Of a stretch of DNA of 64,000 nucleotides, positions 39,691-45,568 are shown piece by piece. A program made the position numbers and the translations under genes. A model generated the notes under the pieces. It was not told the DNA's origin and did not search any database. It saw only the letters and a list, made by a program, of their open reading frames with translations. The first letter of the stretch is position 1; each line of letters opens with the position of its first letter. Origin of the DNA: Lentisphaerota bacterium. GTDB lineage: Bacteria > Verrucomicrobiota > Lentisphaeria > Victivallales > Victivallaceae. The DNA lies in contig SUWF01000008.1 of the NCBI GenBank assembly GCA_015061575.1, forward strand, positions 1 to 64,000, read 5' to 3'.

Positions 39691-40044
39691 TCAGGCCACT
39701 GGCACCCGGAATGGCTTGCTGTGTTCAGCTTTGGGCAAAGTCAAAGTCAAAACACCGTCGCAGGTGGCGGCAGAAATTTTGCTTATATCCACCGCCCGGG
39801 AAAGCCGGAAAATACGCTTGAAAAGTATCGGCCGGTGACTGCGGCGCAAAGTGCTGGCACATTCAACAGTCAAAATGCCGTTTTCGACCTCTACTTTGAC
39901 CGAGGCGGCGTTGCAGCCGGGAACTTCAAAATACATGGTAAAAGCGTCCGGATCTTCAGTAATATCCACCGGCGGAACAAGTTCGATATTTTCGACCGGT
40001 TTGGCTGTTTCATCTGTTTTGACGATTTCGTTTTTGCTGCTCAT
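39691..40044 (-). CDS. Hsp20/alpha-crystallin small heat-shock protein
   Basis: A 117-residue protein. The alpha-crystallin domain spans about residues 28-110 with MYFEVPGC, VEVENGILTVE and the conserved GVLTLTLPK. The N-terminal arm is short and charged, and the C-terminal tail lacks a clear I-x-I motif (FRVPVA). It is 9 nt downstream of a second Hsp20 gene. Such pairs often co-assemble as ATP-independent holdases. Confidence 0.92.
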   Translation of the reverse strand: MSSKNEIVKTDETAKPVENIELVPPVDITEDPDAFTMYFEVPGCNAASVKVEVENGILTVECASTLRRSHRPILFKRIFRLSRAVDISKISAATCDGVLTLTLPKAEHSKPFRVPVA

Positions 40045-40053
40045 AAAATCACC

Positions 40054-40512
40054 TCATTTTACTTCAATTTTGCGTGAAAAAGCACAGTTGTTGTTTTCGC
40101 GGGGGATGCTTACGGTAAGCACGCCGTCAGCGTATACAGCTGAAGCGTTGGTGCATTTGATGTTGCCCGGCAGCCGGACGGTCTGAGTTACTTCGGTATG
40201 GAGCCGTTCGCTGCGAAGTATTTTTTGACCTTTGGCATGATGCGGATGACTTTCGCTGTTGTGTTCGGTACGGACGGTCAGGAGGTCATTTTCGATTTCG
40301 ACCGAAATTTCCTGCTTGGTGAAGCCGGGCAGGGAAATGCGTACCGTAACCGCATGTTCGGTAATTTCGATTTCCGGGTGGATGTAGTCATTCAGCTCCG
40401 AATGAAGTTCTTCGCCCGGAAAGAGGTCAAGCTTGCCCATTACCGAGTCGAACATGGAATCCCACCGGCGCACTGATGGCAGCAGTGCATGTTTTCTCAG
40501 ATTGTTCAACAT
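40054..40512 (-). CDS. Hsp20/alpha-crystallin small heat-shock protein
   Basis: A 152-residue protein with the alpha-crystallin domain from about residue 45 (HAVTVRISLPGF, VEIENDLLTVR, GVLTVSIP) and a longer N-terminal arm with WDSMFDSVMG. His-rich loop ESHPHHAKG. The ATG at 40512 has AGGAG seven nt upstream, and this ribosome binding site is buried in the hairpin at 40519-40568, implying temperature- or structure-controlled translation. It is the first gene of the two-gene Hsp20 operon. Confidence 0.93.
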   Translation of the reverse strand: MLNNLRKHALLPSVRRWDSMFDSVMGKLDLFPGEELHSELNDYIHPEIEITEHAVTVRISLPGFTKQEISVEIENDLLTVRTEHNSESHPHHAKGQKILRSERLHTEVTQTVRLPGNIKCTNASAVYADGVLTVSIPRENNNCAFSRKIEVK

Positions 40513-40518
40513 AAAAAA

Positions 40519-40568
40519 ACTCCTTTTTTCTGCAAGGCAAATCAGCTTGCCTTACAAAAAATTGGAGT
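40519..40568 (-). promoter_or_regulatory. Shine-Dalgarno-sequestering leader hairpin (candidate RNA thermometer) of hsp20
   Basis: On the minus strand the 22-nt arms flank a 6-nt loop (GCTGAT). 20 of 22 positions pair if G-U is allowed, with one AA/AA internal loop. ACTCC at the 5' end pairs with GGAGT, which contains the Shine-Dalgarno of the Hsp20 gene starting at 40512. Pairing is A-U-rich near the site, as in thermosensors. A run of T follows, so an intrinsic terminator or attenuator role is also possible. Confidence 0.65.
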
Positions 40569-40733
40569 GCCGGATTTATAGATTTGTTCGATGCGGCATC
40601 GCTTCATAACGCAAATTATTTTCAGCTCGTCGGCCAAGACGTACAGGCTGATAAAATGCAGAAAAAGGTATGCCGCATTGGCAAAATTTACAACATCCTT
40701 AATAAAAGGTTTGAAAAAACCGTGGATTAAAGC

Positions 40734-41831
40734 CTATTTTTTGCGCAGCGGAAAGACCAGGTTGCGGCGCAAAAAGTAATTGCCGAAAAATCCCACGATC
40801 GAGGCCAGGATCTTACCCCACAGTGGTGCATGGAGCCATTTTACCAGCGCCCAGGTCACCAGATAATCGATTCCGCCCATGATCATCAGCGTAAGCAGAT
40901 ACGCCGCCAGTTCACCGGCCGTACTCCAACGGGCCTTGTGGCGGAAAAGTATGGCAATACATAAAAAGTAATTGGCCGCTGCACTGGCAGCGTAAGATAT
41001 TCCAGTGGCCCAATAAAGCGGCATCTGGCAGGTTTTGATCAATACGGCAAAGACCAGCAAGTTGACCAGGGCCGCCGTTGCTCCGATAAAGAAATAGAGC
41101 AATATTTGCATAGGCAACGGCGCATTACATGCTCCATAATGCAAGATGCAATAGAGGGCATGAACGCCATCACGCCAGCCGATTTTTTTGCCTTCTTCAT
41201 ACGAACGGGGATTATAACTTACTGCACACTCATATACCCGTACTTGGGCTTCAGCGATATATGCAGTGACTTCCGGTTCAAAGCCGAAGCGGTTTTCTTT
41301 CAACTTCGGAGCGATAGTTTGAATGACTTCCCGCCGGAAGAGCTTGTAGCAGGTTTCCATATCCGTTATATCCAGATTGGTGAACATGTTGGAGGAAAAA
41401 GTCAGGAATTTATTCATCCAGCTGTGCCAGAAGTAGAGCACCCGGCGGGTATCTGGTTTAAGATAGCGGGAGCCGAAGACCACATCGGCCCGGTTGTCGA
41501 TCAACGGTTCCAGCATGGTCAGATAATCTTGCGGATTGTATTCCATATCGGCATCCTGTACGCCGACAAAATCCCCCGTGGCTTTAATAAAACCGGTGCG
41601 CAGCGCAGCGCCTTTGCCCTGATTGACTTCGTGGGCGGCCAGAACGATTTCGGGGTGTTGTGCGGCCAACTTTGCGGCGATTTCCCGGCTGCGGTCTTTG
41701 GAACAATCGTCAACGATAATAATTTCCAGCTGCAAATTATCGCTTTTGAGAGTCATTACCCGGTCAATGATATCGGCTAAAGTAGCTTCTTCGTTGTAGC
41801 AAGGTACGACCAGACTGAGTTTGACTGCCAT
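40734..41831 (-). CDS. GT2 glycosyltransferase (DPM1-like) fused to a GtrA-like membrane domain
   Basis: A 365-residue protein. The N-terminal GT-A domain has LVVPCYNEEATL, IIVDDCSKD and the DAD metal motif in VQDADMEY, with EVNQGKGAALRTGF, typical of dolichol/undecaprenyl-phosphate sugar synthases. From about residue 235 four membrane spans form a GtrA domain (FFIGATAALVNLLVFAVL). Together they would make and flip an undecaprenyl-phosphate sugar for membrane transferases such as the GT39-like proteins in this window. A small membrane ORF lies upstream on the same strand. Confidence 0.9.
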   Translation of the reverse strand: MAVKLSLVVPCYNEEATLADIIDRVMTLKSDNLQLEIIIVDDCSKDRSREIAAKLAAQHPEIVLAAHEVNQGKGAALRTGFIKATGDFVGVQDADMEYNPQDYLTMLEPLIDNRADVVFGSRYLKPDTRRVLYFWHSWMNKFLTFSSNMFTNLDITDMETCYKLFRREVIQTIAPKLKENRFGFEPEVTAYIAEAQVRVYECAVSYNPRSYEEGKKIGWRDGVHALYCILHYGACNAPLPMQILLYFFIGATAALVNLLVFAVLIKTCQMPLYWATGISYAASAAANYFLCIAILFRHKARWSTAGELAAYLLTLMIMGGIDYLVTWALVKWLHAPLWGKILASIVGFFGNYFLRRNLVFPLRKK

Positions 41832-42088: not shown

Positions 42089-45000
42089 ATGGATAACACA
42101 CAAATTGTCAATGGCGGTTTGCAATCAATAAATCAATCGGCGGACAGCCTGGAGTTTGATTTTAATTTGCCTTGGGCTCAAAACGCAGTTGTTATGGCGG
42201 GTGAAAATTATAAGGTGTATACGGGGATCGTATCCCAAAACATAAGTTTGTCCGGAACTTATGTGTGCGGCGAAAATCTGACTTTGCTTAACGGCGGCGG
42301 CTTTTATGGCTCCGGATTTTCGTTTACCCACGCTGGCGCCGACAGTGCTTATATTGACAGTATCGATTCAACAGGTGTGATCCATAACGTTTCCGGGCTG
42401 CAGACCAGAAGCGGATATGCTGCTTTTACAGTGAACGGAACCGCAAGTAATGTAATATTGCGCGGCAGCAGGTTTGACCGTGACCGTGTAATAGTCTATG
42501 CTTCAATGACTTTGCATGGGCAGTCATTTAATACCACGGTTGATTTTGGAGGTATGTTGCTGGTTGGCAGCGGCGGCACCGCCAATAGTACCACGGTAAA
42601 CAGTCTTGGCAGTATGAGTGTTTTTGCCGGCGGCATCGCCAGTAATACCACGGTCAACAATGGCGGTAATTTTTATCTGTATTCCGGCGGCACCGCTGTC
42701 GGTGGAACTGTAAAAGGTACTATTCATGTATCCAGCGGCTCTATAGCCAGCGATATTGTAGTAGATAATGGTTTGGCTTGGTTGGGCAGTGGCGGTAGTG
42801 CTGGCGGCAGTGCGGTAAATCTGCAGCTGAAAAACTATGCCCGAATCTACGGCAATAAAAATGGTAAATTATCAATTACGCATGTAGGAAGCAATGTTGC
42901 TGTTATTGGCAGTATTGACTCTGATGGCGTGATCGGTGATATATCCGGTTTGCAAACCAGCGGATATAATGCTTTTACAGTAAGTGGCACCGCAAGTAAT
43001 GTAATATTGCGCGGCAGCAGGCTTGACCGTGGAATAGCCTATGCTTCAATGACTTTGCATGGGCAGTCATTTAATACCACGGTTGATTTTGGAGGCATGT
43101 TGCTGGTTAGCAGCGGCGGCACCGCCAGTAATACCACGGTCAACAGTCTTGGCAGTATGGGTGTTTTTGCTGGCGGCACCGCCAGTAATATCACGGTCAA
43201 CAATGGCGGTAATTTTTATCTGTATTCCGGCGGAACAGCTGTTGGTGGAACTGTAAAGGGTACTATTCATGTATCCAGCGGCTCTATAGCCAGCGATATT
43301 GTAGTAGATAATGGTTTAGCTTGGTTGGGCAGCGGCGGTAGTGCTGGCGGCAGTGCGGTAAATATGCAGCTGAAAAACTATGCCCGAATCTACGGCAATA
43401 AAAATGGTAAATTATCAATTACGCATGTAGGAAGCAACATTGCCACTATTGGCAGTATTGATTCAGATGGCGTGATCGGTGATATATCCGGTTTGCAAAC
43501 CAGCGGATATAATGTTTTTGCAGTAAGCGGCACCGCAAGCGATGTGACCATAGGAGGTTATATCAGCAGCGGGGCTTCACGAACTACCATGTCTTTGCAT
43601 GGTTCAGCCATTGATACAGTTGTTAACTCGTGTGGACTTTTAATTGTTTCCAGCGGCGGTACCGCCAATAATACCACGGTCAACAGTGTTGGCGGTATGA
43701 GTGTTTTTGCTGGCGGTACCGCCAGTAATACCTCGGTCAACAGAGGTGGAGATTTTTATTTGTATTCCGGCGGCACTGCTGTTGGTGGAACTGTAAAGGG
43801 TATTGTCTTTTTATCCAGCGGTGCTATTGCCAGCGATATTGTATTATCTGGCGGCGTGTTGCAATTAGGCGACAATTCCGTCAATCCGGGTGGCTCGGCT
43901 ACAAACCTGCAGCTGCATAACAGCGCTACAATCAGGGGGTGGAACGGCACTTCTAAAAAAATATTTATTACGCACGTTGGTGGCAGTGTTGCCACTATTG
44001 GCAGTATTGATTCAGATGGCGTGATTGGTGATATCTCCGGTTTGCAAACCAGCGGATATAATGTTTTTGCAGTAAGCGGCACCGCAAGCGATGTGACCAT
44101 AGGTGGTTCTATCAGCAGCAGCAGGGCTTCACGAACTACCATGTCTTTGCATGGTTCAGCCATTGATACAGTTGTTAACTCGTATGGAGTTTTAATTGTT
44201 TCCAGCGGCGGTACTGCCAATAATACCACGGTCAACAGTGGCGGCATTTTAGATGTTGTTGCCGGCGGAACAATCAGCAATACTGCTTTAAGTAGCGGTT
44301 ACGCCAATGTTTACAGCGGAGGACGGATCACCGGGGATTTGAACATTGCTTATGGTGGTCTGGTTTCCGCTTATGCCGGGTCGATCGTTGAGTTTGATAT
44401 CAGTGATCGCACTATGGATGATAAAGCAGTAATCAATAATTTGTCGTTGATTTCCGGTACTCCAACTTATACGATCACCGTTGCCGCTGCTCAGGCCAAT
44501 GGAGTTTATCAGTTGGCGGCCGGTGCTGCCGGATTCAACGGTTCTATCACTATTGGTGATGGCGCTGAAACTTATGGAACGCTTGCGCTGGACAGCACCT
44601 TTAAGTACAACGGCAAGAGTTACACTATCAACAATACCGATGGTAATTTGACGCTGGCGGTCAGCAGTTATACCCAGTTCTTTACCGGCAACTTTAGTGG
44701 TTCGGCCGATATGCTTCTGGCCAGTAAAGACGGCAAGGTTGCGATTTATAGCAACAATGACGTTTGGGCGGAAATGACTCTGGAAGACGGTTGGAACGTT
44801 GTTGGCGTGGCGGATTTTAATGGTGACGGTAAGGCGGATATTTTGCGCAAGCATGTTTCCGGTTTGGTCATTGGAGAAATGTCTGATGGCGCCGGTAACT
44901 TCACTCCGCAAGTCCTTAACTCCGTTGGTTCCGGTTGGGGAATTGAAGGTACTGGCGACTTTAACGGTGACGGGGTAGGGGACGTTTTGATTGCCAACCC

Positions 45001-45568
45001 CACTGCCGCCAGTGATGGCAATCCCGATTATCCCAAAGATCAGCCTCCGATCGGCCTCTTGGGCTATTGGAAGGGCGGCACTGAGTGGACTTTGATCAAC
45101 GGCTATTCGCCTGAATGGAAAATGGTTGCCACTGGTGACTTCAACAACGATGGCAAAACTGATATGCTCTGGCGCAATGAATTTATCGGCGCCGGTGACT
45201 TGACTTATAATGCCTATTGCACTTGGATCGTTGACAACGCCAACGACTGGCGCATGGTCAGCGTTGCCAATCCTGACGAATGGGATTTCCTCTGCAGCGG
45301 CGACTTCAACGCCGATGGCTGCAACGACATCGCCATGATCAATGGTGATGGCGTAGTCGGCATCTGGGGAGTCAATGACGGCTACATGAACAGCTGGAGC
45401 ATCCTCAGCGCCGTAACAGCTGAATGGACTCTCGCCGGAGTCGGCGACTTCAACGGCGACGGCACCGACGACATCGCCTGGTGCAACACCGAATCCGGCT
45501 TAACCGGCTACTGGCAAATTAAGGACAAAACCTTAGATTCCTGGCAAAACATAGCCACGGTAGCTTAA
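42089..45568 (+). CDS. Large repeat protein: AIDA-like beta-helix repeats plus FG-GAP/VCBS calcium repeats
   Basis: A 1159-residue, Gly/Ser/Thr-rich protein. Residues about 100-760 are stacked AIDA-like strand-loop repeats (SSGGTASNTTVNS, VFAGGTASNTTVN), organised as three near-identical units of about 182 residues plus a partial fourth. After a linker, residues about 860-1155 hold five FG-GAP-type calcium motifs: DFNGDGKADI, DFNGDGVGDV, DFNNDGKTDM, DFNADGCNDI and DFNGDGTDDI. This fits a cell-surface or matrix adhesin. No signal peptide, autotransporter barrel, LPXTG or PEP-CTERM signal is visible, so the export route is unknown. GGGGA precedes the ATG. Confidence 0.85.
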   Translation: MDNTQIVNGGLQSINQSADSLEFDFNLPWAQNAVVMAGENYKVYTGIVSQNISLSGTYVCGENLTLLNGGGFYGSGFSFTHAGADSAYIDSIDSTGVIHNVSGLQTRSGYAAFTVNGTASNVILRGSRFDRDRVIVYASMTLHGQSFNTTVDFGGMLLVGSGGTANSTTVNSLGSMSVFAGGIASNTTVNNGGNFYLYSGGTAVGGTVKGTIHVSSGSIASDIVVDNGLAWLGSGGSAGGSAVNLQLKNYARIYGNKNGKLSITHVGSNVAVIGSIDSDGVIGDISGLQTSGYNAFTVSGTASNVILRGSRLDRGIAYASMTLHGQSFNTTVDFGGMLLVSSGGTASNTTVNSLGSMGVFAGGTASNITVNNGGNFYLYSGGTAVGGTVKGTIHVSSGSIASDIVVDNGLAWLGSGGSAGGSAVNMQLKNYARIYGNKNGKLSITHVGSNIATIGSIDSDGVIGDISGLQTSGYNVFAVSGTASDVTIGGYISSGASRTTMSLHGSAIDTVVNSCGLLIVSSGGTANNTTVNSVGGMSVFAGGTASNTSVNRGGDFYLYSGGTAVGGTVKGIVFLSSGAIASDIVLSGGVLQLGDNSVNPGGSATNLQLHNSATIRGWNGTSKKIFITHVGGSVATIGSIDSDGVIGDISGLQTSGYNVFAVSGTASDVTIGGSISSSRASRTTMSLHGSAIDTVVNSYGVLIVSSGGTANNTTVNSGGILDVVAGGTISNTALSSGYANVYSGGRITGDLNIAYGGLVSAYAGSIVEFDISDRTMDDKAVINNLSLISGTPTYTITVAAAQANGVYQLAAGAAGFNGSITIGDGAETYGTLALDSTFKYNGKSYTINNTDGNLTLAVSSYTQFFTGNFSGSADMLLASKDGKVAIYSNNDVWAEMTLEDGWNVVGVADFNGDGKADILRKHVSGLVIGEMSDGAGNFTPQVLNSVGSGWGIEGTGDFNGDGVGDVLIANPTAASDGNPDYPKDQPPIGLLGYWKGGTEWTLINGYSPEWKMVATGDFNNDGKTDMLWRNEFIGAGDLTYNAYCTWIVDNANDWRMVSVANPDEWDFLCSGDFNADGCNDIAMINGDGVVGIWGVNDGYMNSWSILSAVTAEWTLAGVGDFNGDGTDDIAWCNTESGLTGYWQIKDKTLDSWQNIATVA
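42441..44280 (+). repeat. Long in-gene tandem DNA repeats (units of 543-549 bp)
   Basis: Equivalent points (CCGCAAG) recur at 42441, 42990, 43533 and 44082, spacings 549, 543 and 549 bp, all multiples of three. Units 1 and 2 are almost identical at DNA level over long stretches. Such repeats favour recombination that changes protein length. Confidence 0.85.

Follow-up and report, generated by a model that had tools for sequence, protein, structure and literature searches.

The hsp20 locus and its leader

The window analysed here, the whole stretch of 64,000 nucleotides from the start of contig SUWF01000008.1 of a Lentisphaerota bacterium, carries on its minus strand a pair of small heat shock genes, the first of which has a leader able to fold over its own ribosome binding site (Table 1). 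The start codon used for this gene (ATG, 40512-40510) is backed by an N-terminus conserved across four species. In all four genomes of the genus that carry hsp20 the upstream neighbour is a codirectional glycosyltransferase gene, separated from hsp20 by 88-221 nt; the gap is very short in two genomes, and besides the hairpin no obvious terminator is seen in it. Translational coupling of hsp20 to the glycosyltransferase gene was considered and rejected, the stop codon of the latter being too distant in the window genome. Here the intergenic region (40590-40735, minus strand) exceeds that of the congeners by about 110-130 nt, and it is edged by a 9-bp inverted repeat, ATGCGGCAT/ATGCCGCAT, that abuts TCGAAC; an origin as an inserted repeat was rejected, with no second copy found elsewhere in the sampled sequence. 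Farther along, on the plus strand at 42089-45568, a large secreted repeat protein is encoded with SGGTANNTTVNSGG-type repeats (AIDA-like) and, at its C-terminus, FG-GAP-like DFNGDG repeats.

Table 1. Positions in the window of the hsp20 genes, the leader elements and the upstream neighbour
Feature	Position	Strand	Remarks
Second Hsp20 gene, probable operon partner of the first	39691..40044	-	starts 9 nt downstream of the first
First Hsp20 gene	40054..40512	-	PF00011
T7 between SD and ATG, terminator-like U-tract	40513..40519	-	T5 in one congener (G003)
SD-sequestering hairpin	40519..40568	-	ACUCC/GGAGU base helix, 2x2 A/A internal loop, 15-pair upper stem, 6-nt loop
Shine-Dalgarno (SD) core GGAG, inside AAAAAAGGAG	40520..40523	-	invariant in 4 species (hand alignment)
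Apical loop GCUGAU	40541..40546	-	R-C-U-N-A-N in 4/4 species
Anti-SD arm ACUCC	40564..40568	-	
TCGAAC box (TYGAACAAA in congeners), possible -35-like box	40586..40591	-	exactly 17 nt before ACTCC, 4/4 genomes
Glycosyltransferase gene (GT2 + GtrA domains), upstream of hsp20, same direction	40734..41831	-	

The leader transcript reads ACUCC-AA-UUUUUUGUAAGGCAA-GCUGAU-UUGCCUUGCAGAAAA-AA-GGAGU-UUUUUU-AUG, and the minimum free energy fold of its 50-nt inverted repeat forms 5+15 = 20 pairs. The first-pass annotation had described a leader hairpin of 20 pairs and two A-A mismatches that hides the SD through ACUCC and leaves the ATG just outside, and this description is exact for the minus-strand fold, with GGAGU fully paired and followed by the U-run and then AUG. 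It had also noted that neither the ROSE nor the fourU signature is present, which agrees with the failure of either family to match in Rfam at gathering score or below; over the whole window Rfam gave nothing at gathering score, and the sub-threshold matches were to chance eukaryotic families. Folding of the plus strand was rejected, being less stable and on a strand with no gene. A 101-nt stretch with the hairpin has a z of -3.57, equally stable shuffles being found once in 200, and among 500 dinucleotide shuffles of the leader for each of the four species 18, 4, 4 and 9 reached the real cost of opening the SD.

Conservation of pairing and of sequence

An hsp20 gene is found in four of the five genomes of the genus, those of the window genome and three congeners, at 64-69% protein identity, and the hairpin is present in all four, a small group of gut bacteria; among 84,980 species genomes scanned, no carriers came up beyond the same three congeners. 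In a MAFFT alignment no covariation excess was seen and a gap was misplaced; the four sequences were therefore aligned by hand, and their arms were swapped as a second test. In the hand alignment four pairs of the upper stem have changed on both sides in a compensatory way, and 76 of the 78 cells pair, in line with the first-pass suggestion to look for a stem kept as structure in homologues. When arms are swapped between species the mean energy goes from -22.3 (native) to -16.9 kcal/mol; of 24 pairings the native one is the best, though the runner-up is only 0.1 away, the 3' arms of two species being nearly identical. The ACUCC/GGAGU helix is invariant in the four species and, constrained as it is by the SD, provides no covariation evidence.

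Some parts are conserved as sequence: the unpaired AA, the R-C-U-N-A-N loop and the TYGAACAAA box 17 nt upstream of the stem, while the 14 spacer nt from GAACAAA to ACTCC hold no invariant column in the four genomes. On this comparison the hsp20 leader is under constraint on pairing and also on sequence, since compensatory changes in the stem go together with invariant AA, loop letters and box.

Promoters and sigma factors

Elsewhere in the order, in genera that belong mostly to the same family, a sigma54 promoter (TGGCAC-N5-TTGC) stands before 22 of 25 hsp20 genes, scoring at least 0.75 within -60 to -210 and lying in most cases about 60-110 nt before the ATG; in these leaders the SD is mostly open. 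At the hsp20 genes of the window genus no sigma54 promoter was found: the best sites mostly score near background and sit inside or close to the upstream gene, at -163 to -225. The genus has rpoN, and its dnaK-groES-groEL locus keeps an invariant sigma54 promoter, TTGTCAAAATTGGCACGCATATTGCTT, about 60-80 nt before dnaK. An enrichment of such promoters at heat shock genes has been reported for Planctomycetota and Bacteroidota (PMC12316311). With the sigma54 promoter kept at dnaK, absent at hsp20 and common at hsp20 in other genera, it appears from these comparisons that in this genus hsp20 alone changed its mode of control. Upstream of the dnaK sigma54 promoter, GTGTGCCA/TGTGTCA repeats are seen (loci L042-L045), and the locus is read as a Lentisphaeria heat shock operon under sigma54. 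RpoH was not found above its cut-off in the window genus, and control by CIRCE was rejected after a pattern search of the dnaK-groESL loci gave no site.

The TYGAAC-N17-ACTCCAAT spacing is constant in the four genomes and, with its variable spacer, looks promoter-like; within the inverted repeat no recognisable -10 element is present. A sigma54 promoter inside the hairpin loop (GGCAAGC..TTGC) was rejected, its spacing being off by one and its GG not conserved in the four sequences, as was an ECF-like regulon defined by GAAC-N16..18-ACTCCAA, whose matches are only scattered. A search with the two-box motif of TYGAAC plus stem found no regulon among other genes. Two sigma70-type factors occur in every genome of the genus (in the window genome, at C40:22205 and C68:6311), and the second could be the reader of the non-canonical hsp20 boxes.

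Recurrence of the design at other genes

When the four leaders were built into a covariance model and 78 genomes of the family were searched with it, the four hsp20 copies came first, followed by weak matches of the same design at other genes. Folding of 86 matches from a family-wide pattern search sets apart a distinct group with opening costs above 10 kcal/mol. Behind this strong group or the weak matches lie, among others, genes for a portal protein and a small terminase (both by PHROGs) and for thioredoxin-like, LacI-type regulator, HD-domain, phosphotransferase-like and unknown proteins. Many of the recurrent elements have TTGACAAAA directly 5' of the stem, and in part of them TTGAMA is followed at 15-17 nt by a sigma70 -10 sequence (TATATT, TACATT, TATTTT or TATAGT) that falls within the loop; initiation there would fall after the 5' arm, and so the gene's own transcript would lack that arm. 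What sets the hsp20 copies apart from this class is their internal loop and a TYGAAC box that precedes the stem by 17 nt. The arrangement TTGACAAAA-hairpin-SD-T6/7-ATG is possibly a family-wide class of terminator/ribosome-site elements, and is seen at L127:1611-2483, L081:1452-1961, L083:1187-2371, L129, L131, L132, L134, L135, L191 and L197.

In a blind sample of 960 leaders from four genomes, made with a home-made gene caller, strong SD hairpins occur in 4 of 64 leaders with a T-run and in 5 of 896 others at 8.5 kcal/mol (Fisher p 0.0018, for a threshold set post hoc), with p 0.008 at 7.5 and 0.04 at 10 kcal/mol. The hsp20 leader ranks eighth of the 960.

Heat sensing, termination or a regulated leader

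The first-pass annotation had proposed a candidate RNA thermometer. On such a reading the full stem would always be part of the hsp20 mRNA, and heat would melt the base helix beside the A/A loop to free the SD. An Hsp20 gene is a fitting target, SD sequestration is complete and conserved in four species and is predicted at low temperature, thermometers make use of weak points such as the conserved A/A internal loop that adjoins the SD helix, and hsp20 of this genus, lacking the sigma54 promoter of other genera, would need some other heat control. The energetics speak otherwise. By nearest-neighbour energies the cost of opening the SD in the four species is 7.6, 10.7, 11.3 and 9.8 kcal/mol at 37 °C and 7.0, 9.9, 10.5 and 9.1 kcal/mol at 42 °C, a drop of about 0.6-0.8, and between 37 and 50 °C single SD bases have a predicted probability of about 1e-5 to 2e-2 of being unpaired, so that in silico the stem is too stable to open over about 30-45 °C. 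In each of the four species the SD is held by Watson-Crick pairs over its whole length, and the stem exceeds the range of the Pseudomonas ibpA sensing hairpins (-4.1 to -7.6 kcal/mol), of which a mutant whose SD was perfectly paired showed no activity at either temperature (PMC3669281). When the nearest-neighbour calculation is applied to E. coli, the SD cost is 1.8 for ibpA and 5.2 for ibpB, values that leave out the non-canonical ROSE pairs, which lie outside the energy model. The same design also stands before genes without a heat shock link, and an SD hairpin before a small heat shock gene does not by itself make a thermometer. Simple melting of the hsp20 stem by heat is unlikely on these models, because the opening cost is high, the SD bases stay paired and known sensing hairpins are weaker; the heat-sensing part of the earlier proposal is therefore not sustained by the predictions, and a thermometer seems to us an unlikely account of the leader.

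The same annotation had allowed for a terminator or attenuator, and there it was better founded, a stem being followed by a U-run and the terminator d-score being positive in three of the four copies at +19.5, +12.8 and +13.9, with -10.3 for G003, which has T5. Taken alone, this could describe a glycosyltransferase terminator of the plain intrinsic kind, whose overlap with the hsp20 SD is due to chance and want of space in a compact genome and which has no regulatory role; the very short intergenic gaps of two genomes fit such an overlap. We regard it as improbable, since G003 has lost the long U-tract but keeps the SD pairing, the A/A internal loop is retained though a perfect stem would terminate better, and complementarity to the SD is exact in 4/4. 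Those features that go beyond the needs of pairing (the loop R-C-U-N-A-N, the CAA/UUG closing pairs, the unpaired AA) and the conserved GAACAAA box would suit instead a full-length leader working as a translational or termination switch, to be opened by a trans factor (a small RNA, a protein or Hsp20 itself) that recognises the loop and the upstream box. The loop CUNA fits the YUNR U-turn motif of antisense-target loops, but a six-base loop matches YUNR by chance roughly once in 5 or 6, no such factor or small RNA is known, and the proposal draws on four sequences; a leader regulated in this way is about as doubtful as the thermometer.

A candidate anti-read-through element

The reading to which we lean, tentatively and with somewhat less than even confidence, is that the hairpin on the hsp20 start site is a bifunctional anti-read-through element. 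Read-through RNA from the glycosyltransferase gene would contain both arms, so that the SD would be folded away and no Hsp20 made, and in most species such RNA would tend to end at the U-run just before the AUG. The productive hsp20 mRNA would start inside the inverted repeat and lack the 5' arm; with a start near the G after TTTTTT, for example, only a short stem-loop would remain at its 5' end and the SD would be free, and for RNA starting at the G after the T-run the predicted SD cost is 0.7-2.3 kcal/mol as against 7.6-11.3 kcal/mol for the full stem. Alternatively, a factor may open the stem for the productive mRNA. The structure, its conservation, the SD occlusion in silico, the arrangement of neighbours and the recurrence at unrelated genes can be read directly from the sequence; we infer termination in vivo, the internal transcript start and the silencing of read-through.

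Support for an anti-read-through role comes from conservation of the hairpin, the codirectional upstream glycosyltransferase gene, the recurrence, the d-score, the promoter-like spacing of the TYGAAC box and a precedent in phage T4. Its weak point, as far as the repeat can be read, is the missing hsp20 -10; also counting against it are the T5 and negative terminator score of G003, and an A/A loop and loop letters that are superfluous for a simple insulator. Wider, and rather doubtful, is the proposal that one Lentisphaeria genus swapped sigma54 control of hsp20 for a new class of structured leader, one that acts at the start codon both as a terminator and by occluding the ribosome site, and that is used family-wide at prophage and housekeeping genes to silence read-through. 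If right, this would mean a compact insulation of neighbouring genes, in transcription and translation at once, and a heat shock gene able to switch its mode of control within one family.

Comparison with known systems

With ROSE and ROSE-like ibpA thermometers the hsp20 hairpin shares its place in the leader of a small heat shock gene and the SD in the 3' arm, but it is much more stable, matches no Rfam family, has an SD helix free of mismatches and lacks a U(U/C)GCU element. FourU thermometers are likewise SD-sequestering leader hairpins, although here the partner of the SD is ACUCC and not UUUU, again with no Rfam match. Intrinsic (Rho-independent) terminators and attenuators also have a stable stem directly followed by U5-7; in contrast to them the 3' arm is here the SD, the AUG comes immediately after, the U-tract is not long in all copies and an internal loop is conserved. 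A precedent is phage T4 I-TevI, where the SD hairpin forms only on upstream transcripts and the promoter overlaps the hairpin (PMC2988022). In common with I-TevI and the T4 e and soc type, hsp20 has a very stable SD-hiding hairpin under codirectional upstream transcription, with the SD predicted to be occluded in read-through RNA, and an own start within the repeat would free the SD as for I-TevI. It differs in that the hsp20 promoter within the repeat is a putative one, the gene is a chromosomal heat shock gene of Lentisphaeria, and the U-run is terminator-like.
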